A stretch of 64,000 nucleotides of DNA, taken from the NCBI RefSeq assembly GCF_029016285.1, contig NZ_CP091976.1:1302001-1366000 (forward strand), read 5' to 3'. The translations under genes and the position numbers were made by a program. Below are positions 44,924 to 62,471 of this stretch, in pieces; within the stretch, counting starts at the first letter, position 1, and every line of letters begins with the position of its first letter. Origin of the DNA: Vibrio sp. DW001. GTDB taxonomy: Bacteria > Pseudomonadota > Gammaproteobacteria > Enterobacterales > Vibrionaceae. Below the pieces are notes generated by a model, which saw only the letters and a list, made by a program, of their open reading frames with translations, had not been told where the DNA came from and made no database searches.

Positions 44924-46579
44924 ATGAAACTTGCGATTTACGCCATCACCGTAGCGGGCGAAAAACAAGGGGCTAAGCTGAAAAGGGCGCTCCCTTTTGC
45001 CGATTTATTTGTTGCTCCAGTTGCGATAGACGTGTCACCAGACGCGACACGATTGATGTTGCCGTTATCAAGCTTTGTTGCTGATAGGTTTAATCAGTAT
45101 GACGGCCATATCTTCATCTGTGCTAGCGGTATTGTCAGTCGAATCATCGGACCTTTGCTGAAGGACAAAACAAGCGATCCAGCGGTGGTCTGTCTGGATG
45201 AGCAAGCGACGTTTGCTATATCCATGCTTTCTGGTCACCGGGGTGGCGCAAATCAATTAACTGAACGAATTGCCCATGTCGTGAAGGCGACACCCGTTAT
45301 AACAACGGCATCCGATGTGTCGGAGACAGTCTCGGCAGATATGCTTGGTTCCCCATTTGGTTGGGTTCTTGACGCCAATTCAGAACCGTCAATTACAAAG
45401 GTTTCGGCCGCTATCGTCAATGAAGAGCCAGTGATTATCGCGCAACAGACGGGTAATAAAGATTGGTGGAAGTACGACAAGCGCATGCCAGCTAACCTCA
45501 TTAGTCATACTAGCCTTGATGGTGTCGAAAGTGTCCATTATCGAGGCGCAATCCTCATCAGTGATGAATATCAAGTTGATCTATCCGGCTGGGAAAACAA
45601 GGTCGTACTTTGGAGACCAAAATCGTTAATTCTTGGTTTAGGTTGCGATCGAAATACACCCTTGTCAGTATTGAAAGCTGGGTTAGTAGCCTTCAGCGAA
45701 CAGTTTAATCTCTGTTTAGAATCCGTTGAAGCCTTCGCTAGTATTGACCTAAAGGCGGACGAAGTTGGACTGCAACAATTGTCGGAACAGAATCAGTGGT
45801 TATTTAACACCTATCCACCGCACCAACTGGATGGACTTGAAGGTATAGAAAGCCCGTCAGATTACGTCAAGAAAGTGACCGGCAGCAATTCTGTGGCAGA
45901 AGCGGCAGCATTAAAACTGAGTGGGACTAAACAGCTTGTCGTGCCCAAATGGGTATTCAAGCAAGATGGTTTCAACATGACGATAGCGTGTTGTCGCCGC
46001 GAGTTTACCGAATCTTTGGTCAGGCATAAGCGTAAGAACTGGTTTGGTGAAAAAAAGCATGGCAGCGAAGTTCTGCATGGCGATAGCGAGTCAAACACCA
46101 ATGAAATCAAAGTAAATGCTTACGGTAATGAAGTAGTAGAAGGCTATCAGTGCAAGCCAAAGCATGTGGATTTGGATCGGCCAATGCTGTTCTATAAACA
46201 CCATATTTTGATCTGTGAAGGCAAACGATGCGCCAAGGCAGGAAGTAAAAATCTTGCACACGACTTGCGGTCAATCTTAAAAACGATGGGACTGTCGACT
46301 GGAGAGCGGCGAATAAAAATAAGCAGAACTATGTGTGCCGGTGCTTGTCGTAATCGTTCGACAATGGTGATCTACCAGCGAAGTGACAAATCTCTTTCTT
46401 CTGAAAACCAAGAGCCCTCTGAAAATAATGCGCTTTGGCTGCGAGGTATCGAAGCGTTTTCCGAACAGGAATGGAAAGCGTTGTTTAACGCGTTGGCGAA
46501 TAACAGGCCGCTTTTCGAAGTGATAGACAATAAATATTTCGCGCAGATTGAAAGCGCGGACGAGACGAACCAATTATGA
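44924..46579 (+). CDS. cbiG: Cobalt-precorrin-5A hydrolase fused to a 2Fe-2S ferredoxin-like domain
   Basis: Protein of 551 residues, against about 330-350 for CbiG alone. Residues 1-about 370 are CbiG (ICASGIVSRIIGPLL, LSGHRGGANQLTERI, LILGLGCDRNTPL), which opens the delta-lactone to release acetaldehyde. After a linker (about 370-420) comes a thioredoxin-like 2Fe-2S domain: HHILICEGKRC near 425-436 and MCAGACRN near 470, the CX4C...CX3C pattern of that fold. The extra domain is not needed for the known hydrolysis. The reading frame is continuous, so this is a true fusion. Confidence 0.88.
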   Translation: MKLAIYAITVAGEKQGAKLKRALPFADLFVAPVAIDVSPDATRLMLPLSSFVADRFNQYDGHIFICASGIVSRIIGPLLKDKTSDPAVVCLDEQATFAISMLSGHRGGANQLTERIAHVVKATPVITTASDVSETVSADMLGSPFGWVLDANSEPSITKVSAAIVNEEPVIIAQQTGNKDWWKYDKRMPANLISHTSLDGVESVHYRGAILISDEYQVDLSGWENKVVLWRPKSLILGLGCDRNTPLSVLKAGLVAFSEQFNLCLESVEAFASIDLKADEVGLQQLSEQNQWLFNTYPPHQLDGLEGIESPSDYVKKVTGSNSVAEAAALKLSGTKQLVVPKWVFKQDGFNMTIACCRREFTESLVRHKRKNWFGEKKHGSEVLHGDSESNTNEIKVNAYGNEVVEGYQCKPKHVDLDRPMLFYKHHILICEGKRCAKAGSKNLAHDLRSILKTMGLSTGERRIKISRTMCAGACRNRSTMVIYQRSDKSLSSENQEPSENNALWLRGIEAFSEQEWKALFNALANNRPLFEVIDNKYFAQIESADETNQL

Positions 46580-46609
46580 AAAATATAACACCTGCCGAGG
46601 AGGCAAACT

Positions 46610-47482
46610 GTGGCTAAATTATCTTTGGTGGGATTAGGACCAGGAAGCGTAGATTTGATGTCGATCCGCGCTCAGGAAGTGATTAAACAAGCCGACGTGA
46701 TAGTGGGTTACGGTCTCTATGTGAAACTTATCTCCTCGCTTATCAACAAACAAGCACTGGTAAGAACAGGAATGACCAAGGAGTGGCAGCGTGCCGATGC
46801 CGCCATTAAACTGGTTCAAGAAGGTAGGAATGTGGCATTGGTTTGCTCTGGTGATGCCGGCATGTATGCAATGGCGCCTCTTGTGTTTGAACTGCTCTCT
46901 TCGCATCAGATTAATATTGAGGTGGAAACTATTCCCGGAATTACTGCGGCTAATGCTTGTGCGTCGTTAGTCGGTGCACCGTTAGGCCATGACAGTTGCA
47001 CGATTTCGCTGTCCGATCTATTGACCCCGTGGGAGGTCATTACTCGTCGAATAGAAGCGGCGGCAATGGCTGATTTCGCGATTACCTTTTATAATCCGAG
47101 GTCAAAAAAACGTCAAAATCATATTGTAGAAGCGCAACGAATCATTCTTAAACACAGACCTCCGACCACGCCTGTCGCCGTTGTCAATGCGGCCTATCGA
47201 GACGAACAGAGTGTGCAGCTTTCGACGCTGGAGAGCTTTACCGATCTTGAGTTTGGAATGAACGCGGCGGTCATTGTAGGGAACGAAAGCAGTTATCGTT
47301 TCAAGGACTGGATAGTGACCCCTCGTGGTTACAAGAACAAATACATTTTAGAAGATGGCGAGACACGAGAAGGTCAAACACCAGGACGTTCCCTTGAATA
47401 CGCTTCAACGGAGTTATCTTTTGTTGAACCGCAACATTCTCTTGATAAAGACATGGTACAAAACAGTAAGGAAGTCGTATGA
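46610..47482 (+). CDS. cbiH: Cobalt-factor III / precorrin-3B C17-methyltransferase
   Basis: Tetrapyrrole methylase of 290 residues that methylates C17 and contracts the ring. LSLVGLGPGSVDLMS starts the SAM-binding fold; VALVCSGDAGMYAMA and FYNPRSKKR are CbiH/CobJ marks. Start is a GTG at 46610 with a strong GAGGAGG ribosome site. The C-terminal about 45 residues are beyond the core domain and not recognised. It overlaps cbiF by 4 bases. Confidence 0.93.
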   Translation: MAKLSLVGLGPGSVDLMSIRAQEVIKQADVIVGYGLYVKLISSLINKQALVRTGMTKEWQRADAAIKLVQEGRNVALVCSGDAGMYAMAPLVFELLSSHQINIEVETIPGITAANACASLVGAPLGHDSCTISLSDLLTPWEVITRRIEAAAMADFAITFYNPRSKKRQNHIVEAQRIILKHRPPTTPVAVVNAAYRDEQSVQLSTLESFTDLEFGMNAAVIVGNESSYRFKDWIVTPRGYKNKYILEDGETREGQTPGRSLEYASTELSFVEPQHSLDKDMVQNSKEVV

Positions 47483-48306
47483 CCGTTTATTTTATTGGTG
47501 CAGGACCGGGTGACCCAGATCTGATCACAGTAAAAGGTGCAAAGCTAATAGAGACCTGTCCGGTTATTCTTTATGCGGGAAGCTTGGTTCCTAAAGCGGT
47601 TATTGAACGCGCTCATCCAGAGGCGAAAGTGTACAACTCTGCCAGTATGGATCTGGATGAAATCACTAAAGTGTATACCGACGCCCATGAACAAGGACAG
47701 GATGTTGCAAGGGTACAGACGGGGGATCTGTCTATCTATTCTTCCCTAGCTGAGCAAACACGTCGACTTAAGGTGCTGGGTATCGATTGGAAAGTCATTC
47801 CTGGAGTGTCTTCATTTCAAGCATCTGCCGCCGCTTTGGGCCAAGAGTTGACGCTTCCAGAAGAGTGCCAAACGATTATCCTTTCGCGTGCCTCTGGTCG
47901 TACTCCGGTACCAGATAAAGAGAATCTCAAGTCCCTAGCTCGACATGAAGCGACGCTATGCTTGTTCTTAAGCGCAACCTTGATAAGAAAAGTCGTGCGC
48001 GAACTTAGCGACGTTTATCCACAAAATTGGCCAGTCTGTGTGGTGGAAAAAGCCTCGCACCCAGAGGAGCGCATTATTCGTGGCACCTTAGCGGACATCG
48101 CCGACAAGATGCATGACGCGAACATCCGTTCTACGGCCATGATTATTGTCAGTAAGGTATTTGCCATAGACGATTTTGTTGATTCTAAGCTGTACGATCC
48201 CACCTTTTCACACGCATGCCGTAAAGCAAAAGTGGTTGAGCCTTCTTCTTGTCGTGCTTTAGAGGTAGAGACCTCAGTAAAGGGAGAGTCACATGACGAA
48301 AGGTAA
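47479..48306 (+). CDS. cbiF: Cobalt-precorrin-4 C11-methyltransferase
   Basis: Tetrapyrrole methylase of 275 residues. VYFIGAGPGDPDLITVKG start, VARVQTGDLSIYSSL and PGVSSFQASAAALG are CbiF/CobM hallmarks. It overlaps cbiH by 4 and cobA by 14 bases, showing tight coupling. A tail of about 20 residues extends past the usual end. Confidence 0.94.
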   Translation: MTVYFIGAGPGDPDLITVKGAKLIETCPVILYAGSLVPKAVIERAHPEAKVYNSASMDLDEITKVYTDAHEQGQDVARVQTGDLSIYSSLAEQTRRLKVLGIDWKVIPGVSSFQASAAALGQELTLPEECQTIILSRASGRTPVPDKENLKSLARHEATLCLFLSATLIRKVVRELSDVYPQNWPVCVVEKASHPEERIIRGTLADIADKMHDANIRSTAMIIVSKVFAIDDFVDSKLYDPTFSHACRKAKVVEPSSCRALEVETSVKGESHDER

Positions 48307-49666
48307 AGTTTATCTGATTGGTGCCGGTCCGGGGGACCCGGGGCTACTTACTTGCCGAGCAAAACAGTTGCTGAGTACCTGTGATGTGGTGTGTTATGAC
48401 AAGCTTGTTAGCGCCGCAATCCTTTCCATTATTCCAGAACATGTTCAGTTGCATCAGGTCGGCTATCGTGGTTATCAAGGCATCCATATTGAATACGGTA
48501 TGCACCCAGATGTAACGGAATTTGCTTTAGCCGGTAAACGCGTCGCTCGACTTAAAGCGGGTGACCCGTGTATCTTTGGTCGCATAACCGAAGAGTGTCG
48601 CGATCTAAAACAACACGACATTCCATATGAAATAATACCGGGTATTACGGCGGCATTAGGTGCGGCTTCTTATTCCGGTTTTCCTCTTACAAGCGGTGGT
48701 GTGGCGTCAAGTGTCACCTTTGTCAGCGGACATAAAAATACGGAGACGCTTGCGTCATGGAGTAGACTTGGTCAAGCTGGCGGTACATTAGTGCTTTATA
48801 TGGGAGCCAAAAAACTGGCACAGCATACCCAAAACCTTATCGAAAATGGCAGAAGTTCGCATACTCCTATCGCGTTAATATGTTCGGCGACAAGTGCTGA
48901 TCATCAATGTATTACGGGAACACTGGGCACTATCGCTGAAAAAGTCGAACAGTCCACGCTTAAAGGACCGGCTTTAGTGATTGTTGGTGAGGTTGTTGCC
49001 CAAGCTGAAGAACTCAACTGGAGAAACAGCCTGCCATTAACTGGCGTTAGGATGCTTGTTTGTGGTCAGTATGAAGAAATAGCCTATTTACGTGACAAGG
49101 GTGCAGAGGTTATCGCGATCGAAAATACCAGAGTCAGTTCGTTAATAGATAAAGAAGACCTCGACTATCTAGCGACGGCGCCGGAACTCGCTTTCAGTGA
49201 CTTACCCTCGTTTAATCTTTGGTGGAATGCGGTACAAGAATATCATTGGGACATCAGAAAGTTCGCGATGCCATTGGGCAGTAATAACCGCTTTGTTAGA
49301 ATGGCGTTGAAAAACATGGGTATTCAAGCAGAAAAAGTGTCTGACAATGCTCTAACACTGACGGTAAATGAAGAGAAAGCGTTTGGTGAAAAAAACCGAT
49401 ATTATCTTGTTGGACGAGTGAATAATGAGCCACTTAGTTATACGATTCCGATGATTAATTGGTTATTAGTGGAAGATATCGCGGTACTTAAATCCATCAT
49501 TTCACACCATTCTAATGCATTAGAGAGTGCTCAATTGGTTCCATTAAATGAAGAAGTTCGCCAGTGGGCAATCCACCACGGGTATCTTTTAGATAACATC
49601 GATTATCCTGATTTCGTTGATATGTCAGACGTATTGAGTTCGCGAGAATGCGCTGATGTTGCCTGA
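48293..49666 (+). CDS. cobA: Uroporphyrinogen-III C-methyltransferase with degenerate HemD-like C-terminus
   Basis: Protein of 457 residues. Residues 1-about 245 are SUMT, making precorrin-2 (VYLIGAGPGDPGLLTCRA, RLKAGDPCIFGR, GITAALGAASYSG). Residues about 250-457 follow the order of a uroporphyrinogen-III synthase after SUMT, as in clostridial CobA-HemD fusions, but conserved HemD strands are hard to see and the domain is about 50 residues short. The second domain may be inactive or repurposed. No separate precorrin-2 oxidase (CysG N-terminal type) is in the window. Confidence 0.88.
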   Translation: MTKGKVYLIGAGPGDPGLLTCRAKQLLSTCDVVCYDKLVSAAILSIIPEHVQLHQVGYRGYQGIHIEYGMHPDVTEFALAGKRVARLKAGDPCIFGRITEECRDLKQHDIPYEIIPGITAALGAASYSGFPLTSGGVASSVTFVSGHKNTETLASWSRLGQAGGTLVLYMGAKKLAQHTQNLIENGRSSHTPIALICSATSADHQCITGTLGTIAEKVEQSTLKGPALVIVGEVVAQAEELNWRNSLPLTGVRMLVCGQYEEIAYLRDKGAEVIAIENTRVSSLIDKEDLDYLATAPELAFSDLPSFNLWWNAVQEYHWDIRKFAMPLGSNNRFVRMALKNMGIQAEKVSDNALTLTVNEEKAFGEKNRYYLVGRVNNEPLSYTIPMINWLLVEDIAVLKSIISHHSNALESAQLVPLNEEVRQWAIHHGYLLDNIDYPDFVDMSDVLSSRECADVA

Positions 49667-50639
49667 TTTCCTGCTCGCTAATGTCAAGTTGACCATAGGG
49701 GAAAGCATGTTAGTTAGTGCGGTTGTCCTTGTAGTTGCTTTGTGGTTGGATCGATGGTTTGGAGAACCAAAACGGTTCCATCCATTGATTGGTTTTGGGC
49801 GTATGGTAAATAGCCTTGAAAAGACGTGCCGGGCGTATGGGTTTATTAGTGAGAAACAGCAGGGTGTACTGGCGTGGATAATGGCGGTTATTCCCATTGT
49901 GGTCACAACGTATATTCTTTTGGCATGGGTCGCGCAGATATCTTTCCCATTATGGATCGGGCTGAATGCGATAGTAGTCTATCTGACCATCGGTGGGACA
50001 AGTCTTGTCGAACATGCGCAGAATATCTACCGGCCACTAAAAGCGAGTGATATAGATCAAGCGCGCTATCAGGTGTCGATGATTGTCAGTCGCAATACTG
50101 ACAACATGGTTGAAAATGAGATCACTTCTTCAACAATTGAGTCTGTTTTAGAGAATGGAAATGATGCTGTTTTTGCCCCTATGTTCTGGTTTTTGATCTT
50201 TGGTGCGCCGGGTGCGGTGTTATTTCGTCTTGCTAATACGCTGGACGCCATGTGGGGCTACAAGAACGAACAGTACCTGAATTTCGGGTTCTTTAGCGCA
50301 AAAAGTGATGACCTTCTCGGTTGGATTCCGGCTCGACTTACTGCGGTGATTTATGCGTTTCAGGGTGACTTCGCCAGTGCAATGCAGTGTTGGCGGGAAC
50401 AAGCAAAACAGTGCAGCAGCCCAAATGGTGGCGTCGTGATGACAGCTGGTGCTGGCGCGTTGCAAGTGATGATTGGTGGACCAACCTATTATCATGGGGT
50501 ACTGCACGACAAAAAACCGATGGGCATAGGCAAGCCTGCTCAATGGAAATCAATCCCCGCGGCCAATCGATTGGTCTCACGTGGGAGTTTTGCTCTCGGT
50601 TATCTTTGGTTAATTTGTGTCATCGTAGGAGTAAGTTGA
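49656..50639 (+). CDS. cbiB: Adenosylcobinamide-phosphate synthase
   Basis: Inner-membrane enzyme of 327 residues that joins the aminopropanol phosphate arm to adenosylcobyric acid. WLDRWFGEPKRFHPLIGFG near residue 30, the SRNTDNMVENEITSSTIESV segment and FAPMFWFLIFGAPGAVLFR are family marks. About five helices. It overlaps cobA by 11 bases; its TGA shares one base with the cobD ATG. Confidence 0.95.
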   Translation: MLPDFLLANVKLTIGESMLVSAVVLVVALWLDRWFGEPKRFHPLIGFGRMVNSLEKTCRAYGFISEKQQGVLAWIMAVIPIVVTTYILLAWVAQISFPLWIGLNAIVVYLTIGGTSLVEHAQNIYRPLKASDIDQARYQVSMIVSRNTDNMVENEITSSTIESVLENGNDAVFAPMFWFLIFGAPGAVLFRLANTLDAMWGYKNEQYLNFGFFSAKSDDLLGWIPARLTAVIYAFQGDFASAMQCWREQAKQCSSPNGGVVMTAGAGALQVMIGGPTYYHGVLHDKKPMGIGKPAQWKSIPAANRLVSRGSFALGYLWLICVIVGVS

Positions 50640-51700
50640 TGGCGATTAAACATGGTGGCAATCTGAATAAGATAGCCGCCGAATATGGCACCGATCCAGA
50701 ATGTTGGATTGACCTGTCAACGGGAGTGAGCCCTTTTACCTATCCGGTAGGAGACGTTCCTCTTTTTGTTTGGAACCAACTCCCTCAAAATAATGATGGT
50801 TTGGAAGTGGCGGCTAGGCGTTATTATGGCGGATACTCTGATCCGGTTATTGTCGCGGGATCTCAGGCTGCCATTATCTCACTACCCGCTGTTCTTACTA
50901 AAGAAATGGGTCGCTGTGGCACAATATCGTTGCCAAGGGTTGGTTACAAAGAACACCAATATGCATGGACACAATTTGAACAAGATTCATGTCACTGGAA
51001 AGTACTGTTTTATGATGGTTTTCCGTCAGAACAACAGATTGCAGAAAGTGACGTGGTGTTGATTATCAACCCTAATAACCCGACGGGTAAGTTTAGCTCT
51101 AAGAACGCACTCTCGACAATCAGTCAAAAAATGCAAGAGAAAAAGGGCTACCTTATTGTCGATGAGGCTTTCGCTGACTGTACACCAGAGATATCGATGC
51201 TAAGTACTGACGAGCAACGGAGCAGCCTGATTGTTCTTCGCTCGGTAGGTAAGTTCTTTGGGCTAGCTGGGGCCAGAGTAGGGTTTGTTTTTGCGTCGGA
51301 AAATATTAAAGGGCAACTCGAAACATTGCTTGGTCCGTGGACGGTTACAGGCCCCGCTCGCTGGGTGATGAAAAAGGCACTATCCGATCACCAGTGGCAA
51401 AAAGAGGTGGCACATCGTATCAAGTCAGCATCCATTCGGTTGAGTGGCCTTTTGGGGCAATATCTCGGCGATAGAACCTCGGTTACCGATCTCTTCATCA
51501 CCGTTTACCTAGATGAGGCGGCTGCTTGTCATGATTTTCTTTGCCAACAACACGTGCTAACACGCCTTTGTGATGAGAAAAACGCGCTTCGCTTCGGTCT
51601 GCCAGCAGATGAAACCCAGTGGAATAAACTGGAGTCAGCGTTGTATCTATTGGCAAGAAATAGAGTGGTTGCACGGAACAAGGATCCTATCTATGAGTGA
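50639..51700 (+). CDS. cobD: L-threonine-O-3-phosphate decarboxylase
   Basis: PLP enzyme of 353 residues that makes (R)-1-aminopropan-2-ol phosphate for CbiB. HGGNLNKIAAEYG near the start, INPNNPTGKF and the PLP lysine in RSVGKFFGLAGARVGF are seen. ATG at 50639 follows AGGAG; the open frame further 5' is within cbiB. It overlaps cobU by 8 bases. By genus naming this is CobD of Salmonella, CobC in Pseudomonas. Confidence 0.93.
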   Translation: MAIKHGGNLNKIAAEYGTDPECWIDLSTGVSPFTYPVGDVPLFVWNQLPQNNDGLEVAARRYYGGYSDPVIVAGSQAAIISLPAVLTKEMGRCGTISLPRVGYKEHQYAWTQFEQDSCHWKVLFYDGFPSEQQIAESDVVLIINPNNPTGKFSSKNALSTISQKMQEKKGYLIVDEAFADCTPEISMLSTDEQRSSLIVLRSVGKFFGLAGARVGFVFASENIKGQLETLLGPWTVTGPARWVMKKALSDHQWQKEVAHRIKSASIRLSGLLGQYLGDRTSVTDLFITVYLDEAAACHDFLCQQHVLTRLCDEKNALRFGLPADETQWNKLESALYLLARNRVVARNKDPIYE

Positions 51701-52286
51701 GTTAGAAACCAGCATAGACGCTAAAGATGCTGACGAAACCGTTACTAAGTTAACCGCTACAGAGAACACTGATGTTGAACTGGTACTTGGCGGTGCACGG
51801 TCTGGTAAAAGTAGTTATGCAGAAAACAGGGCTAAAGCCTGTGGAAAAAGAGTCATTTATATCGCGACATCTGAAGTCAGAGATCAAGAGATGGCGAAAC
51901 GGGTAGCAATGCACAAAAATCAACGACCGTCCGAATGGTTGGTTGTTGAAGAGCCGTTTGACTTGTCTGAAACGCTAATGCAATACAGCGACGAGAGCAA
52001 CTGCATATTGGTTGATTGTCTGACACTTTGGCTAAGTAATTGCCTGTTTGGTGAGCAACCAAGAGAGTGGGCAGAGATCAAAGCCGAATTTATTCATACG
52101 CTAAAGACCCTACCTGGGCAAGTCATTCTGGTCAGCAACGAGGTTGGCTGCGGTATTATTCCGATGGGTGAGATGAATCGCCGATTTGTTGATGAGGCGG
52201 GTTGGCTTCATCAAGCCATTGCAGCACATATCCCAAAAGTTACCCTTGTGACCGCCGGATTGCCATTAACGCTGAAAGGAAATTAA
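51693..52286 (+). CDS. cobU: Adenosylcobinamide kinase / guanylyltransferase
   Basis: Bifunctional enzyme of 197 residues that phosphorylates and then guanylylates adenosylcobinamide. The P-loop GGARSGKSSYAE lies near residue 33, after a short extra N-terminal tail; VDCLTLWLSNCLF and SNEVGCGIIPMG follow. ATG at 51693 overlaps cobD. The guanylylation His lies in the helix after the P-loop region (AMHKNQRP). Confidence 0.94.
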   Translation: MSELETSIDAKDADETVTKLTATENTDVELVLGGARSGKSSYAENRAKACGKRVIYIATSEVRDQEMAKRVAMHKNQRPSEWLVVEEPFDLSETLMQYSDESNCILVDCLTLWLSNCLFGEQPREWAEIKAEFIHTLKTLPGQVILVSNEVGCGIIPMGEMNRRFVDEAGWLHQAIAAHIPKVTLVTAGLPLTLKGN

Positions 52287-52288
52287 CG

Positions 52289-53308
52289 ATGACTTGGTTG
52301 AATTACATTACCTTGAATTCTGTTGCCCCCGTTCCTAACCTGCATTTAATCAGTGATGCTGGCGCGGGTGAAGGATTAATGCAGCTTCATCCAACCAGAG
52401 ACACAGAGCTCATTGCCTGTGGTAAAGCCAATACCTTTTTAAATGGTGAATATTTGCCATCTCCTCTGCTAGGTAATGGGTCGGTGACTCCAGCGATATT
52501 GGTCCATGGGCTTTTTAGTGCTTTGCAAATGAAAGGGTTCAAAATACGTCTTCATTGTTATCAGCTTGGTTTGGACAATGTGCCAGATTTTAGTGACAGC
52601 AACATGGACGAGGTGGTCATTCACTCATGCAGAACAGGTGATGAGTCGACCTTAATTCAACAGGTTCTTGTGCCGGAACTCCGTCGCCAAGCGCTTGAGA
52701 AAGAAGAACATCTGATCGCGGAATCTGGGATAGGTGGTACGACATTCGCGACACTTTGGTTACGACGCTTACTCGACGAATCGCTCTGGTTTTCGGGGAG
52801 TACTAAAGACCCAGAAAAGTTAATTAAAAAATCTCAAGCGGTCGATGATTTATGGAATAAATCGGCATTTTTGGGCAGTGATGTGAGTGGCTATATCAAT
52901 AATATGGAATGTTCAGACCCGACTCAGCGAGCGTGTTGTGCTCTGCTTAATGCCGATTTGAACGGCCTTAACTTTGCAGGAGGTACAATGGTCTTTGCCC
53001 CTGTTATTGCCATGAATGGTAAGACTAAATCAAAGAATGTTTCTGTTGCGACGACCCGTTGGATGCTTGATTCTCGCGACTCGAAAATAGCCGCCGATGC
53101 ACTACCGGATGAATGCAGTTTAACCACGCCAAAGGTGGATTTTCTTCAGTCAAAATTTGACGCTATTCGGATGTACGAAAGAGGGTATGTCGTTGAAGGC
53201 TGTGGTCTAGGAGCGTGTCTGGTCTTTGCAGAACAACACGGTCTCACACACATTGAAATAATAGAAAGTATGGATAATGCGGTTACACATTGGTTTACTG
53301 AGGTTTAG
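52289..53308 (+). CDS. CobT-like nicotinate-nucleotide phosphoribosyltransferase (archaeal/cyanobacterial type)
   Basis: Protein of 339 residues. It does not look like enterobacterial CobT but has the run [29 protein letters not shown] and later [12 protein letters not shown] typical of the alternative CobT family (UPF0284 group) that activates the lower-ligand base. ATG at 52289 has AAAGGA upstream. Its place between cobU and cbiP supports a nucleotide-loop role. Functional assignment is from partial family memory. Confidence 0.62.
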
Positions 53309-53349
53309 ATAAACCTATTGGAAAAAGAATGGCCCTAGGAGATAGAAAA

Positions 53350-54816
53350 ATGCAGTCTTGCTCTAAAGCATTAATGGTTCAGGGAACCACCTCTGACGCG
53401 GGTAAAAGCGTACTGGTTGCTGGACTTTGCCGAGTGTTGGCCAGAAAAGGGGTCAATGTGGCTCCATTTAAACCTCAAAATATGGCGTTAAACAGTGCGG
53501 TTACCGCAGACGGCGGTGAGATAGGGCGTGCTCAAGCGGTTCAGGCTTATGCGTGTCGCGTAGAACCCACAACCGACATGAATCCTGTATTGTTGAAGCC
53601 TAATTCCGATACTGGTGCTCAGATTATTGTGCATGGCAAGGTACTAACGGATATGGATGCAAAGGGCTATCATAATTATAAGCCTAAGATGATGCCGTAT
53701 GTTATGCAGTCGTTTGATAGGTTGCAAAGCACGTTCCAAACCGTTGTTATTGAAGGGGCAGGTAGCCCTGCTGAAATCAACCTACGTGATCACGATATTG
53801 CCAATATGGGGTTTGCTGAAGAGGCCGATATTCCCGTTATTATTGTCGCAGATATCGACCGTGGTGGTGTATTTGCACACCTTTATGGCACGTTAGCATT
53901 GCTAAGTGAGTCAGAACAAAACCGAGTGGTTGGTTTTGTTATCAATCGTTTTAGAGGTGATATTGCGCTTCTGGTGAATGGTTTGGAGTGGCTGGAAGAA
54001 AAGACAGGGAAACCGGTTATTGGGGTACTGCCGTATCTTCATGGATTGATGTTAGAGGCTGAAGACGCGATTGATGTCAGCCAGTTAAATAATGATGAAC
54101 CGCAGCTAAAAGTGGTTGTGCCTGTCCTGCGACGTATTAGTAACCATACCGATTTTGATCCATTGCGAATGCATCCTAATGTCGATCTTGTCTTTGTTGG
54201 CAAACATCAACCTTTGCCTGCGGCCGACCTGATTATTATTCCGGGCTCAAAAAGTGTCCGCAGTGATTTAGCCTATCTACGGGAACAGGGTTGGGACAAG
54301 CAGATTGAACGCCACCTCCGTTTCGGTGGAAAAGTGATGGGAGTTTGTGGTGGATACCAAATGTTAGGCGAAAAAATATCGGATCCGTTAGGAATTGAGG
54401 GTGAATGCGGTGACAGCAAAGGTTTAGGTTTTCTACCGTTGGAAACAGAGCTTAAAAAAACCAAGCAACTCAAGCAGACCAAAGGAAGTTTGACCCTTCC
54501 GGGGCAAGAGACAGCCGAGGTGTTTGGTTACGAAATCCACGCGGGAGAGACCAAGGGCGTGACCGAAGACGCACCGTTAGCACTCGAAGATGGCAAAGAT
54601 GGTGCGGTGGGGTTCGAAGGCCAAGTGTTTGGCAGTTATCTGCACGGTATCTTTGAGTCACCTGATGCCTGTGGGGCCATTCTTCGATGGGCCGGATTAG
54701 AAGAGGCTAAAGGGTGTGACTTTGCTCAGATGAGAGAAGGCGGAATCAACCGTGTTGCTGATGCGATAGAGCAACATCTTGACCTTAAAAAACTCTGGCC
54801 GGATCTGGATTTGTAG
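53350..54816 (+). CDS. cbiP: Cobyric acid synthase
   Basis: Glutamine-dependent amidase of 488 residues that adds four amides (b, d, e, g). The N-terminal P-loop-like [30 protein letters not shown] and the C-terminal glutaminase with [10 protein letters not shown] (nucleophile Cys) and YLHGIFE are in place. ATG at 53350 is preferred because AGGAG lies 8 bases before; an in-frame ATG at 53329 is the alternative. It is followed by cbiA after 11 bases. Confidence 0.95.
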
Positions 54817-54827
54817 GAGTAGGTATT

Positions 54828-56147
54828 ATGAATGTCATTAAAGAAAGTTGCCCCGCATTAGTTGTTGCCGCGCCGAGCTCTGGCAGCGGTAAAACCACGG
54901 TGGTTGCAGCTATTGCACGGCATTTCACCAATCAAGGAAAGAAGGTTCGGGTATTTAAAACCGGACCTGATTTTATTGATCCGAACTTCCTCTCGTTTGC
55001 CTCTCGTCAACCTGTGTACCAGTTGGATTTCTGGATGTGTGGTGAGGAACATTGCAAACAGATGGTGACGGACGCCGCTAAAGATGCCGATTTAATTCTG
55101 ATAGAGGGGGTTATGGGAATGTTTGATGGTCAGTGTTCTAGCGCAGATATTGCCGCGACACTTGGTATCCCTGTGATGGCAGTTATTGATGCTGGTGCAA
55201 TGGCTCAGACATTTGGTGCCGTTGCCTACGGTTTAGCACATTTTCGTGACGATATTCAGATGTTCGGTGTTTTTGCAAATCGAGTTGGTTCGGCAGGCCA
55301 TGCTGAAATGCTCAAAGAAGCGCTGCCAGATTCGTTAGAATTTTGTGGTTATTTGCCCAAGAATAGCGGACTTACGCTACCAGAACGGCATTTGGGTTTG
55401 GTTCAGGCGCAGGAGTTGGAAGACCTTGATGAGCGATTAGACCTTGCGGCAGAACTGATTGCTCAAACTGGAGAAATACCATTACCACCAGCCGTAGAGT
55501 TTACATCTACAACCCAAATTCGAGTCAAACCGTATCTAGAAGGGACGACTATCGCCATTGCGAATGATACGGCGTTTAGCTTCCTCTATCAGGCGAACCT
55601 CGATCTGCTAAAGGAATCTGGAGCCGCTCTTACGTTCTTTTCTCCAATCAATGGTGAGTCGCTTCCCGTGTGTCATTCGCTTTATCTTCCGGGAGGCTAT
55701 CCTGAGTTATATCTTGACGAATTATCATCAAACACCGAACTGAGATCTCAAATTAGAGCCCACGTGGAGGCGGATAAGCCGGTTGTCGCAGAGTGTGGTG
55801 GCATGCTCTATCTAAACCAAACATTGGCGGGTATTGATGGGCAATCCACGTCAATGTGTGGTGTGTTGGATGCCGATTCGCAGATGCAATCGTCGTTGGC
55901 TGCCCTCGGTTTGGTTGAAGGGGAGCTAGCTCAAGAGCAGATGTTGCGGGGTCATACATTCCATTATTCTAAAACGAAATCGAAGGAACCGCAGTTATGC
56001 ATGCCCGTTTCACAGCGTGGTCGCAAGCTTGACCCTGTTTGGAAACATAAAAAGGTTATCGCATCCTATATCCACTGGTACTTTCCTTATAACTTTCCAT
56101 TGGTGGTCAAAATGTTTAAAGGTGAGTTATTTGGAGATGGATGTTGA
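54828..56147 (+). CDS. cbiA: Cobyrinic acid a,c-diamide synthase
   Basis: ATP- and glutamine-dependent amidase of 439 residues, a and c side chains. VVAAPSSGSGKTTVVAAIAR P-loop near residue 11, FKTGPDFIDPNF, LIEGVMGMFDG and the glutaminase nucleophile in VAECGGMLYL are seen. TAGGAG precedes the ATG. It overlaps cobC by 7 bases. Confidence 0.95.
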   Translation: MNVIKESCPALVVAAPSSGSGKTTVVAAIARHFTNQGKKVRVFKTGPDFIDPNFLSFASRQPVYQLDFWMCGEEHCKQMVTDAAKDADLILIEGVMGMFDGQCSSADIAATLGIPVMAVIDAGAMAQTFGAVAYGLAHFRDDIQMFGVFANRVGSAGHAEMLKEALPDSLEFCGYLPKNSGLTLPERHLGLVQAQELEDLDERLDLAAELIAQTGEIPLPPAVEFTSTTQIRVKPYLEGTTIAIANDTAFSFLYQANLDLLKESGAALTFFSPINGESLPVCHSLYLPGGYPELYLDELSSNTELRSQIRAHVEADKPVVAECGGMLYLNQTLAGIDGQSTSMCGVLDADSQMQSSLAALGLVEGELAQEQMLRGHTFHYSKTKSKEPQLCMPVSQRGRKLDPVWKHKKVIASYIHWYFPYNFPLVVKMFKGELFGDGC

Positions 56148-56707
56148 GGGTTGTATTGATCCGCCATGGGCAAACAGAATGGAATTTGGAAAGAAGAATT
56201 CAAGGCCGCCGCAACAGCGATCTTACCAAAGACGCAATAAGCAAGCTTAAACAAATAGAACTCCCTAAGCTTCGTTACCCTGTTATGTACACAAGTGACT
56301 TAGGGCGGGCTCGCGAGTCAGCACGTATTATAGCGAATCTGATTGGTATTGAGTTCACGCAGGATTCTCGCTTGCGCGAGCGTAAATTCGGTGTGCTTGA
56401 AGGCAAAGTAGTCAACCAAACACGGCAACTACGCGAACAGTGGCAGGCCTACCACCAACGTTATACAAAAAAGATAGGCAATGAATTTGGCTTCGAATCT
56501 GAAACCGATTTTGAACAGCGTATTTGCTCCTTTCTGTTAGAGTTAGATAAGCATCCTTCACAATCAGATATTGTCATCGTCTCTCATGGTGAATGGATAC
56601 GAGCTTTTATTAATATTGTAGAAGGGATCCCCTCATGGCACAGCGGCCGTGGTATTGAGGCCAATGGATTGCCTGTTATTATCGATACGCTCGTCGAGAT
56701 AAATTGA
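56141..56707 (+). CDS. cobC: Histidine phosphatase, CobC-like (alpha-ribazole phosphatase)
   Basis: Phosphoglycerate-mutase-fold phosphatase of 188 residues with LIRHGQTEWN (phospho-His10) near the start, the acid residue in LRERKFGVLEG and VSHGEWIRAF late. In the cobalamin pathway it removes the phosphate from alpha-ribazole-5-phosphate or adenosylcobalamin phosphate. General phosphatase families share this fold; the call rests on its place at the end of the cobalamin operon. Confidence 0.75.
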   Translation: MLRVVLIRHGQTEWNLERRIQGRRNSDLTKDAISKLKQIELPKLRYPVMYTSDLGRARESARIIANLIGIEFTQDSRLRERKFGVLEGKVVNQTRQLREQWQAYHQRYTKKIGNEFGFESETDFEQRICSFLLELDKHPSQSDIVIVSHGEWIRAFINIVEGIPSWHSGRGIEANGLPVIIDTLVEIN

Positions 56708-56717
56708 TATTTATCAA
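56704..56717 (+). promoter_or_regulatory. FNR site upstream of TPR-rdhAB
   Basis: TTGATATTTATCAA, perfect TTGAT-N4-ATCAA, overlapping the cobC stop codon. A TTGTAT hexamer at 56738-56743 would put the start near 56750, about 40 bp from the site, close to class II spacing. Identical in all 14 bases to the site before the cbiD riboswitch. Confidence 0.82.
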
Positions 56718-56826: not shown

Positions 56827-57927
56827 ATGGATCATAATAAGGCAAATTGGGTAGAAGACCTGTTTCTCATTCTAGATATTGATGCCACTAAACAGGAGTG
56901 GCATCGTAAGGTTGAAGAGACCTTGTTCTCATTGAAAAATGAGGTGCAGTTTATGGTGTCGACATTAAATAATAACGAAAATCAGCTTATTCAAGAGGCG
57001 CAGAAGCGTGTAACCGGATTTTATATCAATGGGTCAAGAACCAATCTGACAATGGATATAAGAGTGATAGCCAGTGAAATTCTGCTGCGTCACCAACAAC
57101 CAGAACTCGCGCTCACGGTATTGCAACCGATAGAAATGGACGGAAGCAGCGAATACCTTATCAACTTTGGCCGGGCTCTGATGCAGATCGGTATTCTTGA
57201 TCAAGCTAAGCAATGCTTTATGAATGCCTGCGAAAAGAACCCGGAATCACCGGAACCATTTTTTCACCTAGCGTTCTGCTCAAGTGTCAGTGGGGATACA
57301 AAAAGCGCCGCTGGTTTTTATAAGGAAAGCTTACAAAAAGACCCGAAACATATAGGCAGTTTAATGAACCTTGCCTACCTCTATTACCAGCTTGAACAGT
57401 TTGAAGCTGCCATTGAATACGCCAGACAAGTCATCGTAATAGATAAAAACAACCCGGGTGGTTATCTTACGATGTGTGCCTGTCTTAATGCAACCAAGCG
57501 GTTTGTTGACAGCGCTAGCTACATTGAAAAAGCGCGTAAGTTATGCGGTGACAACATTCTTGAGTTGGACGAACTTGAGTGCGTGATCTGTTATGAGCGT
57601 AAACAGTATCAGAGAGCGGTTGATCTGGTTACTCGTTATCTGACAGCTTATCCGAAGGCCATTGATCTGCGCTATATCCGTGGAAATTCAAATATTCAAC
57701 TAGAAAACTGGAATGACGCTCTGGTCGATATGGATGAACTGTTGTCTCTAGAACCATTTGATACACAAACCCTCGAATCGAAATTTATTGTCTTGTATCG
57801 GGCTAAGCGTTGGCAGGAAGCTGAGATCGCGTATATCAAGTTGTTAGAAAACGCACCCCATCTGAGAGTTCAATACACAAAAGAATATACAGAAATCAGA
57901 ACAAACTTAGCAATTGTGATTGGGTAA
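56827..57927 (+). CDS. Tetratricopeptide-repeat protein in the rdh operon
   Basis: Soluble protein of 366 residues, no signal peptide. At least five TPR-like units are seen at about residues 95-330, e.g. PEPFFHLAFCSSVSGDTKSA, GSLMNLAYLYYQLEQFEAA and DLRYIRGNSNIQLENWNDA, spaced 34 residues apart. The N-terminal 90 residues are unrecognised. It is 36 bases before rdhA and probably transcribed with it. TPR proteins act as scaffolds or chaperones; a role in folding or cofactor loading of RdhA before Tat export is plausible but not shown. Confidence 0.8.
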   Translation: MDHNKANWVEDLFLILDIDATKQEWHRKVEETLFSLKNEVQFMVSTLNNNENQLIQEAQKRVTGFYINGSRTNLTMDIRVIASEILLRHQQPELALTVLQPIEMDGSSEYLINFGRALMQIGILDQAKQCFMNACEKNPESPEPFFHLAFCSSVSGDTKSAAGFYKESLQKDPKHIGSLMNLAYLYYQLEQFEAAIEYARQVIVIDKNNPGGYLTMCACLNATKRFVDSASYIEKARKLCGDNILELDELECVICYERKQYQRAVDLVTRYLTAYPKAIDLRYIRGNSNIQLENWNDALVDMDELLSLEPFDTQTLESKFIVLYRAKRWQEAEIAYIKLLENAPHLRVQYTKEYTEIRTNLAIVIG

Positions 57928-57963
57928 TCCATCGGTTTATCCTTACTTTAAGGAAGCAATTAA

Positions 57964-59601
57964 ATGAAAAAAGACGATAAAGCGGAGAATCCAAGCCGTC
58001 GCGATTTCCTCAAGATGGGGGGAGCCACCGCAGCGGTGGCGACCGTCGGCGTAGGAGCAGCGACAGGTTTTGTGTTAGGACGGGAGCCAGATCAAGATAC
58101 GGGCTGGGGAAGAACCGCAGCAGGAAAAGACATGTTCTTTGATCGCGAACCGTTTCGGGTCGACATCGCGCCCACATTGATTAAGGTGGGTACACAACAA
58201 CGTCCAGAAAGGGAAGATTTCTTATTCAAACGCCTCGGTATGATAGGAGGTGCGATACAAGGGGGTTGGGATCCTGCTGGTGGGTGGCAAAGTTGCCCAG
58301 ATGAGCGTGTTGTTAATTACTACCGTAAATTTCCTGCCCGTTGGCCAGAGATCGTTGAAGCATTTAAACAGGGTGCTATCTCTGCAAAGATGCAACATAA
58401 ATACTTGGATCGCTTCGTCATTGCCCATGCCTATGATCATGCTAACAATGCCTCTATGTATGGCCAGAATGGGGTGGAAATCAACTGGCCTCTTCCTCCT
58501 CATGGTGACCCTTCCGTTGCAGATTATAAGAGCATCTATGATGACCAGTATGGCGATCCATCTGCAGGTCGTGTTGGCTTAAAAAGCTCGGGTTTGGTGA
58601 GTGAAGAAGATAAGGTCAATGAAAACCGTCCAATAATTAAGAAGCGTGAATTTAAGACTCCTGCTCATGCGAGTAAATTGATTAAAAAGGTGGCTCATCA
58701 AATGGGGTGCAGCTTTGTTGGTATCACTGCCATTGACCCGGATTTCATCTTTAAAAACATCATGCGTGGTGTTGAAAATGATGGTGAAAATTGGGGCGAT
58801 AAAATTCCGGATCATTGGAAGTCGGTCATTATTCTTGGCGTCCCAATGAGCTGGGATGGTATGTACGCGGCACCGGGTTACGGGACGTCTTATGAAGCTT
58901 ATAGTGAAGTGCGTTTTGCCGCCGGTAAATTAGAGGTATTTTTAAATCGCCTTGGTTGGGCAGGACGAGCCATGGTTCCGGGTGGAGATTATGAAATGAC
59001 GTTGCCGCCGCTAGCCGTAAAAGCGGGGCTTGGAGAGTCGGCTCGAAATGGCTGCTTAATAACGCCAGAAGTGGGACCCAATATTCGTTTAGCATGTGTG
59101 GTCACGGACCTAGAGTTTGAGCATGATAAGCCTATTGATATCGGTGTTCGAGACTTCTGTAATGAATGCAAAATCTGTGCGACATCATGCCCAAGTGGGT
59201 CCATTAGTTTAGCGGACGGACCTGATACAATACAACGTGGCTACAAGATCTTCGAGTTCAACCAAGATAGCTGCTATCGCATGTGGTCGTCATTGCCTTC
59301 TAATGGTCAACAAGGGTGTCGGGTTTGTATTGCGGTCTGTCCGTATACGCGGCGTAATAATTGGATCCACACCTTGGTTAAGGAAGCGGACCCCCGAGAC
59401 CCAACAGGATTAACACGAAAAGCATTATTAGCGATGCAACACAACTTTTTTTATTATCCTGATGCAGAGTCTTATGCCGCGCCACATAATGGAGGTCGAT
59501 TAGCAAACTACCATCAACCTCCAGAATGGTTACGCTCAGAAGAGTTCTTCAAAGGCATTGATAAAGACTGGGATTATGACGGTAACTGGGAGGGATTCTA
59601 A
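57964..59601 (+). CDS. rdhA: Reductive dehalogenase catalytic subunit (respiratory RdhA)
   Basis: Tat-exported corrinoid iron-sulfur protein of 545 residues. Twin-arginine signal SRRDFLKMGG at 10-20; the cleavage region follows a hydrophobic stretch to about 37. C-terminal clusters are complete: C399-C402-C405-C409 (CX2CX2CX3CP) and C437, C452, C455, C459-P, the RdhA pattern. The segment AGLGESARNGCLITPEVG (about 354-371) is the conserved RdhA substrate/corrinoid region; active-site Tyr is likely Tyr310 or Tyr313. It would reduce an organohalide at the outer face of the membrane. Followed by rdhB with a one-base stop-start overlap. Substrate unknown. Queuosine EpoxyQ-reductase-like proteins are smaller and lack Tat and RdhB. 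Confidence 0.92.
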   Translation: MKKDDKAENPSRRDFLKMGGATAAVATVGVGAATGFVLGREPDQDTGWGRTAAGKDMFFDREPFRVDIAPTLIKVGTQQRPEREDFLFKRLGMIGGAIQGGWDPAGGWQSCPDERVVNYYRKFPARWPEIVEAFKQGAISAKMQHKYLDRFVIAHAYDHANNASMYGQNGVEINWPLPPHGDPSVADYKSIYDDQYGDPSAGRVGLKSSGLVSEEDKVNENRPIIKKREFKTPAHASKLIKKVAHQMGCSFVGITAIDPDFIFKNIMRGVENDGENWGDKIPDHWKSVIILGVPMSWDGMYAAPGYGTSYEAYSEVRFAAGKLEVFLNRLGWAGRAMVPGGDYEMTLPPLAVKAGLGESARNGCLITPEVGPNIRLACVVTDLEFEHDKPIDIGVRDFCNECKICATSCPSGSISLADGPDTIQRGYKIFEFNQDSCYRMWSSLPSNGQQGCRVCIAVCPYTRRNNWIHTLVKEADPRDPTGLTRKALLAMQHNFFYYPDAESYAAPHNGGRLANYHQPPEWLRSEEFFKGIDKDWDYDGNWEGF

Positions 59602-59918
59602 TGTTTCCACAATCAACGATTTTAGACCCAATTTTTTGGATGGTACTTGGCGCTGTTCAGGTGTTTATTTATCAGTCAGCTAAGCTATGGGCGCAAGATT
59701 ATGGCCTAAGTATGAATGGCTGGAAGTGGACACTAGTCATGGGTTGGTGGTTTTCTCTTATCCTCACTATCGCAGGTGCATTTACGCTGCTTGGTGAGAA
59801 TGAAGGTAATGCTGGTTGGTATTTCCTTGGTTTCGTCGGGACGGCAATTATCATTGGAGGCGCGATTTTGCTGAAGATTCTCTTAGTCTTGAGTGAAAAA
59901 GCAAAACTGACGGCTTAA
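59601..59918 (+). CDS. rdhB: Reductive dehalogenase membrane anchor RdhB
   Basis: Integral membrane protein of 105 residues with three helices (about 10-27, 41-60, 72-95), the size and topology of RdhB anchors that hold RdhA at the periplasmic face. The helices include WMVLGAVQVFIYQSA and WWFSLILTIAGAFTL. It shares one base with the rdhA stop. No other function is suggested by its sequence. Confidence 0.85.
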   Translation: MFPQSTILDPIFWMVLGAVQVFIYQSAKLWAQDYGLSMNGWKWTLVMGWWFSLILTIAGAFTLLGENEGNAGWYFLGFVGTAIIIGGAILLKILLVLSEKAKLTA

Positions 59919-60131: not shown

Positions 60132-61001
60132 ATGATAGAAAACATTTGCTTTGATAACGATAGCTACTTGATGGGTATTAGTGTTGGTAGCATAAAGAAC
60201 CTTATTTTTCGTAGAGGTAAGGAAGAATTGACGAAACCTCATCGAGTCGAGTTTTACGCGTTAATTTTGATCACAGAAGGCAATGGCTACCATTATATTG
60301 ATAACAAACTCTTCCATTGCCGACCGGGTACGTTGTTGGTGTTAAGCCCGCATCAAGTCCATTATTTTGATTCCCTTTTTCAGTGGGATGGGTATGTTGT
60401 CACTTTTCAAGATTCGGAAGTCTTTCCCGTTGATAATTTATCTGCAAACTTCGCGATTACTAAGGCGATCAGAAGTGTTGATAACATGAATGATGTGCTG
60501 GATTTGGTAGGACGCGAGTTCAGTATGTTGTACGAAGAGTGTCAGGCCCGTCAAGATCTAGTGAGTGCCAGACTACAAAGAAACTTGCTACAAAGTATTC
60601 TTTATAAAATATTTTTTAGGCATAACTACTGTCAACAGGAAATGTGCTGCAGCAAAGAGTTTGGATCTTTCCAAATATTCAGTGACTCGGTAGAGGAAGG
60701 TTTTAATCATCGACACAATGTAAGTGACTACACAGACGACGTGCGGATGTCGGTTAAACGGCTCAACTCAGTCTGTCAAAAGGTGAAAGGCGTGTCGGCT
60801 AAGCAGGTTATCGATGCTCGATTGATACTTGAAGCGAAACGATTGATTGGTTACACCTCTACCCCTATCTCTGACATTGCGTTTAGTTTGGGGTTTAATG
60901 AACCAACGAATTTAGCCAAGTTTTTTAAAAAACATACGAATATCTCACCAACGGAGTTTAGGAATATGTCTAAGTTTTTTTCCGAGAATAATCCCGGCTA
61001 A
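60132..61001 (+). CDS. AraC-family transcriptional regulator next to rdhAB
   Basis: Regulator of 289 residues: N-terminal cupin-like ligand domain (about 20-100; HYIDNKLFHCRPGTLLVLSPHQVHYF split) and a C-terminal AraC double HTH (about 185-280, ending GFNEPTNLAKFFKKHTNISP). It starts 214 bases after rdhB. A local organohalide sensor is possible; known rdh regulators are mostly CprK-, MarR- or two-component types, so an AraC type would be unusual. It might instead serve genes beyond the IS. No target site is obvious. Confidence 0.85.
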   Translation: MIENICFDNDSYLMGISVGSIKNLIFRRGKEELTKPHRVEFYALILITEGNGYHYIDNKLFHCRPGTLLVLSPHQVHYFDSLFQWDGYVVTFQDSEVFPVDNLSANFAITKAIRSVDNMNDVLDLVGREFSMLYEECQARQDLVSARLQRNLLQSILYKIFFRHNYCQQEMCCSKEFGSFQIFSDSVEEGFNHRHNVSDYTDDVRMSVKRLNSVCQKVKGVSAKQVIDARLILEAKRLIGYTSTPISDIAFSLGFNEPTNLAKFFKKHTNISPTEFRNMSKFFSENNPG

Positions 61002-61454: not shown

Positions 61455-62471
61455 TTATGTTCTTATTTCAAAAGATTTTTTATGGACTAAAATTGCCCAC
61501 GCTATACGGGCTATCTTGTTGGCTAGTGCTACCACGGCCACGTTAAAAGGTTTTCGTTTCTTAAGCTCAATAAGCCATGAACCAAAATATTTTTCGACCG
61601 ACTTATCTCTCCATAAAATTGACCTTGCGGCATGGATAAATAGCGTTCTCAGTTCTTTATTTCCTCGTTTTGATATCCCAAGTAGCGTTGACTTGCCACC
61701 CGTAGAATATTGAACAGGAACAAGCCCGATCCATGCAGCGAAATTTCGCCCGTTTTTGAAGTCATTTGGATTACCGACAGTTGATATACAAGCGCTAGCG
61801 ATAACTGGGCCAATACCAGGAACAGTCTGTAATTGTTTTACTTGCTCATTGTCAGCGAGAATTCTCTCGACCTTGTCTGCTTGTGAGTCTATACGTTCAT
61901 TGAGGTTCTGATAGTGTTCATGTAGCTCACTCAATTCAAAGATGATTAGAGGAGGAAGGTGTTGATTCTTATCTACCAACCACTGGAATAAACCTTTCAT
62001 ACTAGCGTGCCCTTTTGGCAAACTTATCCCGAACTCAAGAAGGATAGATCCTATTCGGTTCATACAAGCGGTGCGCTCTCTAATATATCCGCTGCGAATT
62101 TTCCGAATGGTAGATACCACTTGAGCTGATTCGGTTTTTGCTGAAGAAAACCTCATTGTTGGCCGTGAAGCTGCCTCTGCGATAGCATCAGCATCGATGA
62201 AATCATTTTTATTGGTTTTAACGTATGGCTTTACATATTGTGGAGGGATTAGCTTGGCTGTATGACCAAGTTCAGCGCACTTTCTAGCTAGCCAATGAGA
62301 CCCGCCACACGACTCCATGGCTATAATTACAGGCTCATGGAAAGATAAGAACTCTAGTAATTTCTGGCGAGTAAGCTTTTTCTTAAATAATTGATGTCCA
62401 GCTTGGTCATGACCAACTAAATGAAAAGAGTTCTTACCTAGGTCGATTCCGATAATGTGTGAGTTATTCAT
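61455..62471 (-). CDS. IS110/IS1111 family transposase
   Basis: DEDD recombinase of 338 residues, full length. RuvC-like part: Asp10 in IIGIDLGKNSF, Glu53 in AMESCGG and the Asp90-Asp93 cluster NDFIDADAIAEA. The C-terminal transposase-20 domain has VPGIGPVIASA and FAAWIGLVP with the Ser-rich STGGKSTLLGISKRGNK segment. The frame is intact, so the element may still be active. It lies 454 bases past the AraC gene on the opposite strand. Confidence 0.93.
   Translation of the reverse strand: MNNSHIIGIDLGKNSFHLVGHDQAGHQLFKKKLTRQKLLEFLSFHEPVIIAMESCGGSHWLARKCAELGHTAKLIPPQYVKPYVKTNKNDFIDADAIAEAASRPTMRFSSAKTESAQVVSTIRKIRSGYIRERTACMNRIGSILLEFGISLPKGHASMKGLFQWLVDKNQHLPPLIIFELSELHEHYQNLNERIDSQADKVERILADNEQVKQLQTVPGIGPVIASACISTVGNPNDFKNGRNFAAWIGLVPVQYSTGGKSTLLGISKRGNKELRTLFIHAARSILWRDKSVEKYFGSWLIELKKRKPFNVAVVALANKIARIAWAILVHKKSFEIRT

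Follow-up and report, generated by a model that had tools for sequence, protein, structure and literature searches.

A candidate oxygen-regulated organohalide-respiration module in Vibrio sp. DW001

Genes and features at the rdh locus

We analysed a 64,000-nucleotide stretch of the genome of Vibrio sp. DW001 (NZ_CP091976.1, positions 1,302,001 to 1,366,000; hereafter the window), in which an original prediction made from the letters alone had placed a respiratory reductive dehalogenase operon consisting of a TPR-repeat gene, rdhA and rdhB. The three open reading frames lie exactly where predicted and this core stands; the extent assigned to the locus was too narrow, as the window also encodes rdhC, a pyruvate:ferredoxin/flavodoxin oxidoreductase (PFOR) and a flavodoxin (fld), as well as cobalamin (B12) uptake and synthesis genes that occupy positions 34782-56707 between rdhC-PFOR-fld and TPR-rdhAB. 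The module comprises the following features:

56827-57927, plus strand: first gene of the operon, a cytoplasmic TPR-repeat protein (366 residues; domain matches, no transmembrane-like segment)
57964-59601, plus strand: rdhA, the catalytic corrinoid/Fe-S reductive dehalogenase subunit with a twin-arginine translocation (Tat) signal (545 residues; NCBIfam, Pfam, alignment, tree and structure matches)
59601-59918, plus strand: rdhB, a three-helix membrane anchor with an ExE motif (105 residues; hydropathy and alignment)
60132-61001, plus strand: AraC-family regulator nearest to HpaA, the 4-hydroxyphenylacetate regulator (119.9 bits, under the cut-off of 274.65)
33315-34586, minus strand: rdhC, a membrane flavin mononucleotide (FMN) protein (FMN_bind 1.4e-12, Fer4_5 1.4e-13; SGAT flavinylation motif, two CX3CP motifs)
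29504-33076, minus strand: PFOR, the second gene behind rdhC (TIGR02176, 1524 bits)
28929-29429, minus strand: flavodoxin, the third gene behind rdhC (Flavodoxin_1, 6e-24)
34782-39958, minus strand: CbiK-like cobalt chelatase with B12-type ATP-binding cassette (ABC) uptake genes, BtuFDC-like plus a further ABC transporter pair (several matches under curated cut-offs)
40088-40268, minus strand: cobalamin riboswitch of the CbiK/uptake operon (102.9 bits)
40769-40936, plus strand: cobalamin riboswitch of the cbi/cob operon (35.8 bits, gathering threshold 31.5)
41020-56707, plus strand: anaerobic cobalamin synthesis operon with cbiD, C, ET, L, G, H, F, SUMT, cbiB, cobD, cobU, cobT-like, cbiP, cbiA and a histidine phosphatase (profile matches; cobT-like and phosphatase under curated cut-offs)
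56704-56717, plus strand: perfect FNR-type box TTGATATTTATCAA upstream of TPR-rdhAB (motif scan)
34703-34716, plus strand: perfect FNR-type box upstream of rdhC-PFOR-fld (motif scan)
40723-40736, plus strand: perfect FNR-type box just upstream of the plus-strand riboswitch (motif scan)

RdhA groups with reductive dehalogenases

RdhA scores above the cut-off of the NCBIfam 'reductive dehalogenase' model TIGR02486 (163.2 bits against 160.35; 166.1 in a six-frame search with neighbours) and carries each of the motifs that had been predicted for it. The Tat signal reads SRRDFLK, is matched by the Pfam model TAT_signal and has arginines that are invariant in the alignment of clade rows; the expected conserved region is present as AGLGESARNGCLITP; and both Fe-S cluster motifs are complete, with eight cysteines (C399/C402/C405/C409 and C437/C452/C455/C459) invariant in 37/37 aligned RdhA sequences and a Fer4_7 match in the Pfam scan. 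Catalytic residues Y313 and R375 correspond to Y246 and R305 of PceA and are kept in every clade row, and RdhA shares the corrinoid-binding fold of solved reductive dehalogenases. Sequence searches of the PDB return PceA (4uqu, 5.1e-30), PceA 8q4h and NpRdhA as best matches, and a search using the alignment as profile finds 8q4h at 3.9e-81 versus 2.8e-14 for the better QueG. In the tree, RdhA belongs to a supported, long-stemmed clade whose members come from marine Gammaproteobacteria and which stands separate from PceA and NpRdhA. By tree and fold it groups with reductive dehalogenases and not with epoxyqueuosine reductases, the competing placement that the original prediction had raised. A QueG identity was rejected: TIGR00276 gives 45.3 bits against a cut-off of 200, and RdhA does not cluster with QueG in the tree or among structures. 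The Pfam model PF13486 (Dehalogenase) has no match to RdhA at 1e-3 and none in the host genome, and control genomes are likewise silent; because it also missed four other RdhA-type proteins at 0.01, this model looks narrow and was not used to exclude RdhA. The host encodes a second rdhA (461 residues; C2:1646-1652 kb), accompanied by rdhB, by a Sel1/TPR gene and by an RdhC homologue on the opposite strand; this second RdhA sits with Desulfitobacterium PceA in the tree.

Directly behind rdhA, as predicted, RdhB shows three transmembrane-like segments by hydropathy. It has no Pfam or NCBIfam match, and its ExE motif is conserved at the first glutamate in 18/18 and at the second in 17/18 aligned sequences. 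RdhA combines a Tat signal with an adjoining three-helix, ExE-bearing RdhB, the arrangement of respiratory-type enzymes. RdhC likewise fits the RdhC/PceC family, with five transmembrane-like segments by hydropathy; its flavinylation motif, including the covalently modified threonine, and both CX3CP motifs are invariant in 12/12 RdhC sequences. The idea that this RdhA type lacks RdhC was rejected, as rdhC occurs in the window on the other strand and not beside rdhB.

The TPR protein is modelled by AlphaFold as a TPR superhelix (pLDDT 90.4). Generic TPR proteins appear among the 50 matches listed in a fold search, and its sequence matches are to TPR and other helical-repeat families, with no homology found to trigger factor, the family of PceT-type chaperones. 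We propose that it is an RdhA-specific helper or chaperone that may do the work of PceT, which serves the operon of Firmicutes, with no homology in support. HpaA is the best NCBIfam model for 11/11 rdh-linked AraC proteins (that of the window and ten from relatives), all under the cut-off; it is also the best model, again under the cut-off, for two AraC proteins beside second-type rdhA genes, and not for two unrelated AraC proteins. This likeness proves nothing, and hints that the effector may be a phenolic acid. An IS110-family transposase gene (model name: RNA-guided) lies directly downstream of the araC gene (61455-62471, minus strand).

Distribution, conserved linkage and FNR-type boxes

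To describe relatives, we denote genomes of the genus Vibrio by G (n=227; G000 is the host) and individual loci by L. An rdhA match at 1e-20 is present in 12/227 genus genomes. The window type of RdhA occurs in four (G000, G159, G007 and G188, the latter three 83-99% identical), and a B type with about 53% identity to the window type over its full length in six; a further RdhA, the second type, is carried by four genomes (G000, G159, G171 and G187). A wider scan recovered 28 loci, spread over Photobacterium, Enterovibrio, Endozoicomonas, Shewanella, Ferrimonas, Psychromonas, Aliivibrio and Vibrio; four come from assemblies already among the 227, and two (L023 and L024) hold the window type. 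In an even sample of the order, 4/394 match at 1e-40. L023, from Photobacterium obscurum, carries both dehalogenase types in one cluster, with window-type rdhAB and araC followed by second-type rdhA, rdhB and rdhC, all behind cobalamin genes.

We examined the neighbourhoods of 35 rdhA genes of the clade in 33 loci, leaving out the window itself and duplicates. The rdhB gene is directly downstream in 35/35 and the TPR gene directly upstream in 30/35; the remaining five comprise two at contig ends and three in Endozoicomonas arrays with a TPR gene elsewhere in the array. Conservation of this linkage across loci indicates that the operon arrangement is not due to chance. Within 4 kb, 30/35 have an rdhC gene (in L023 this follows the second-type rdhA); 33/35 have an AraC gene within 8 kb and 5/35 a PFOR gene within 6 kb. 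Most B-type loci run TPR-rdhA-rdhB-rdhC-araC; rdhC is missing from this place in L029, and Ferrimonas carries its AraC gene on the opposite strand. Around the window type, B12 genes spanning about 22 kb separate the two rdh halves in the window and in G159; the halves adjoin as divergent TPR-rdhA-rdhB-araC and rdhC-PFOR-fld units in G007 and lie about 144 kb apart in G188. Endozoicomonas loci L025 and L027 bring rdhA, rdhB, TPR, rdhC, PFOR, flavodoxin and AraC genes together in a single array.

The rdhC-PFOR-fld row is kept on one strand in 4/4 Vibrio genomes of the window type and in two Endozoicomonas. Neither of the two other PFORs found in the host genome (47% identical) has rdhC or a flavodoxin gene nearby in the 18 kb inspected. 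PFORs 67% identical occur in G171, with a flavodoxin, and in G005 and G162, without one; none has rdhC beside it. Six of six Vibrio carriers of the window or second type encode a PFOR over the cut-off, compared with 8/221 other genomes, in a survey that scored the two best candidates per genome and so undercounts copies and leaves the PFOR of the window itself outside the list. In G007 (L054/L055 and C3:345-347 kb), the rdh-side PFOR frame appears interrupted, a second-type rdhA is present in pieces and a second cbiD copy contains a stop. The cbiD gene is found in 38/227 genus genomes: 6/6 genomes with the window or second type have it, making 6/12 rdhA carriers overall compared with 32/215 others (Fisher p 0.0065). 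B12 genes also adjoin rdhA in L023, as they do the second-type rdhA of G171 and G187. Elsewhere in the host genome (C2:1149-1170 kb) lies another operon for making and taking up cobalamin, of largely similar gene content, which has a riboswitch and no FNR-type box near it.

The motif TTGATNNNNATCAA occurs in three perfect copies in the window compared with 0.24 expected, and 0/100 shuffles reach three. A box with at most one mismatch lies within 350 bp of the TPR start in 22/31 relatives (8 perfect) compared with 12/229 control open reading frames (2 perfect), a difference whose Fisher p of 1.5e-16 should not be taken at face value because the rows are related, the starts were assigned mechanically and some control frames lie inside operons. 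The box is 109-137 bp from the TPR start in 15 of the 22 box-bearing relatives. Ahead of rdhC it is perfect in 4/4 Vibrio genomes of the window type, and about 20-35 bp ahead of the cbi-operon riboswitch it is perfect in the host and G159 and has one mismatch in G188 and G007; two further perfect boxes occur in the 18 kb read of G007. Class II activation usually places the box centre at -41.5, and a box so positioned would put the start of the cbi transcript no more than a few bases from the riboswitch's first base.

A proposed respiratory module and its electron supply

The DNA itself displays which genes are present, their motifs, their conserved linkage, the boxes and the riboswitches, and we think that together these probably describe an oxygen-regulated, FNR-controlled organohalide-respiration module. 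Under anoxia, FNR would bind the boxes and turn on three units, TPR-rdhA-rdhB(-araC), rdhC-PFOR-flavodoxin and the B12 operon, the last additionally subject to feedback through its cobalamin riboswitch. RdhA would receive a corrinoid and two 4Fe-4S clusters in the cytoplasm, presumably helped by the TPR protein, and the folded enzyme would be exported by the Tat system and held by RdhB at the outer face of the inner membrane, where dehalogenation would be catalysed by Tyr313 and Arg375 as in PceA. The most likely source of turnover electrons would be menaquinol, acting at the RdhA/RdhB interface, with PFOR, flavodoxin and RdhC providing or topping up low-potential electrons, and AraC could exert substrate control, perhaps in response to a halogenated phenolic compound.

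Several observations weigh against this interpretation. Linkage is an association between genes and not electron flow. The 67%-identical PFORs of G005 and G162 belong to two Vibrio without an rdhA match, and the six B-type Vibrio carriers have neither a PFOR match nor a cbiD match (0/6), so neither partner is required by all relatives. In 9/31 relatives (three Shewanella, two Ferrimonas, two Endozoicomonas, the B-type P. obscurum locus L029 and L048 from Enterovibrio nigricans), a search of 350 bp that allowed one mismatch found no TPR box. We know of no activity recorded for any member of this RdhA clade; PceA Asn272 is Gly in RdhA and further pocket residues differ, and the substrate may therefore be unlike that of known enzymes.

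The menaquinone pocket residues K489, H495, R499, D515 and Y520 of 8q4h align with R463, H469, E474, Q492 and Y497 of RdhA: two are identical, one is a conservative change and two are changed, with the alignment at R499 and D515 not firm. All 25 gammaproteobacterial rows retain H495 and Y520, and 24/25 have Arg or Lys at the K489 position. With the ExE motif of RdhB also retained and R499 and D515 altered, menaquinol is a likely, not a certain, turnover donor.

Extending the respiratory model, pyruvate, PFOR, flavodoxin and RdhC could form a dedicated low-potential line, a reactivase that brings the cobalt of RdhA from Co(II) to Co(I) as a priming step or, acting across the membrane, restores enzyme that has been oxidised, while menaquinol drives turnover. 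RdhC would then be the membrane arm of a pyruvate-driven system whose periplasmic FMN restores Co(I)-RdhA, and in this Vibrio lineage one FNR-controlled cassette would unite the dehalogenase with the reactivase and with a second B12 pathway induced under anaerobic conditions; we regard both the activity and the cassette as tentative, with rather less than an even chance of being correct. Flavodoxin reactivates methionine synthase, offering an analogy, and the scheme resembles a proposal for NosR with NosZ. It is favoured by the conserved rdhC-PFOR-fld row, missing around the other two host PFORs, and by the invariant flavinylation threonine and CX3CP motifs. Published measurements point the same way: in one PceA the Co(II)/Co(I) couple is reported at -350 mV and menaquinol at -74 mV (PMC10624902), and PceC is described as about 50-fold scarcer than PceA in two Firmicutes and as a possible helper (PMC8905343). 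That scarcity, together with the B-type vibrios that have no PFOR, favours priming or rescue over a full role in turnover. However, B-type carriers retain rdhC with no PFOR match, the rdh-side PFOR of G007 appears interrupted, and PMC10624902 makes the case that menaquinol is nonetheless able to drive the reaction, likely also where rdh clusters contain rdhC.

A different possibility, which we consider improbable, is that the clade consists of corrinoid reductases with a non-halogenated substrate, or of dehalogenases that detoxify rather than respire. The score barely over the TIGR02486 cut-off, the silence of PF13486, the separate long-stemmed clade, the changed pocket and the want of any activity known to us are compatible with it, but the catalytic Tyr and Arg and the Tat arginines persist in all clade rows, and rdhB (35/35), nearby rdhC (30/35) and the FNR-type boxes accompany the gene. 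Somewhat more doubtful still is a quinone-independent respiration in which every turnover electron would pass from pyruvate through PFOR, flavodoxin and RdhC to RdhA, leaving menaquinol no part: the same rdhC-PFOR-fld linkage and the loss of two of five pocket residues (R499 to E474 and D515 to Q492, subject to the infirm alignment there) agree with it, but the retention of H495, Y520, a basic residue at K489 and ExE speaks against it, as does the scarcity of PFOR beside rdh genes in most relatives (5/35). A functional relationship to epoxyqueuosine reductases, suggested by weak matches to QueG models and structures, is contradicted by scores far under those of dehalogenases, the Tat signal, RdhB and a separate queG-like gene in the host genome, and we give it almost no credence.

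Compared with characterized systems, the module is ordinary in kind and new in make-up. The Desulfitobacterium hafniense TCE1 menaquinol:organohalide oxidoreductase PceA2B2 (8q4h) is about 30% identical to RdhA over 291 residues; the Vibrio enzyme differs at the pocket Asn, R499 and D515, and the Vibrio locus has no visible pceT, with a TPR gene instead, and adds an AraC gene and FNR-type boxes. Sulfurospirillum PceA (4uqu) is 35% identical over 223 residues. By contrast, the catabolic dehalogenases NpRdhA (4ras) and BhbA of Comamonas 7D-2 are much longer proteins in a separate clade with Lys at the Arg375 position. NpRdhA-type enzymes are described as cytoplasmic (PMC10624902), unlike RdhA with its Tat signal. 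Sulfurospirillum provides a known precedent for rdh genes beside B12 genes: its region on plasmid pSulSP (L107) pairs rdhAB with corrinoid synthesis genes, but has two-component genes and a NapGH-like quinol dehydrogenase where Vibrio has FNR-type boxes, AraC, rdhC-PFOR-flavodoxin and TPR (PMC8865925). Desulfoluna rdhABC resembles the Vibrio system as described in PMC7031245, being marine, facultative and capable of de novo corrinoid synthesis, with an FMN motif in RdhC and flavodoxin abundant in the proteome; it differs in its sigma-54, LuxR and MarR regulators, and the sections of that report drawn on here do not describe flavodoxin and Por as linked to rdhC. The presence of rdh genes in Vibrio, Photobacterium and Ferrimonas was already implied in 2018 through a marine gammaproteobacterial RdhC set with FMN and CX3CP motifs, from the same genera as here (PMC5928378); the main text of that paper has no occurrence of 'flavodoxin', and no link to PFOR or B12 was seen in the sections of it drawn on here. 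In open-licence PMC literature, we found neither the rdhC-PFOR-flavodoxin linkage nor the TPR gene described, and no account of FNR or AraC control of rdh in these bacteria.

How electrons pass from menaquinol at about -74 mV to RdhA at about -350 mV, and what RdhC contributes, are treated as open or disputed in the published accounts (PMC10624902, PMC8905343, PMC7031245). As rdhC is tied here to PFOR and flavodoxin in Vibrio, both the electron route and the role of RdhC can be tested directly by gene removal, and a likely dedicated low-voltage electron supply beside a dehalogenase becomes a testable enzyme activator. Vibrio is a fast-growing genus with working genetics, and marine vibrios and Endozoicomonas live with animals and algae rich in organobromines; these bacteria are possible facultative players in the natural halogen cycle.

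The window also contains the tryptophanase and phosphotransferase system (PTS) genes that had been noted at the outset. Tryptophanase (TIGR02617, 959.9 bits) lies with an aromatic amino acid transporter at 16760-19590, and indole or its halogenated forms are conceivable substrates. A pyruvate formate-lyase-type enzyme and its activase (7586-12389, minus strand) stand beside a fructose PTS EIIC gene. The GC content of the module parts is 0.44-0.47, slightly above the 0.42 of the first 28 kb of the window, and the IS110-family gene adjoins the module; a horizontally acquired island was considered as a possibility.

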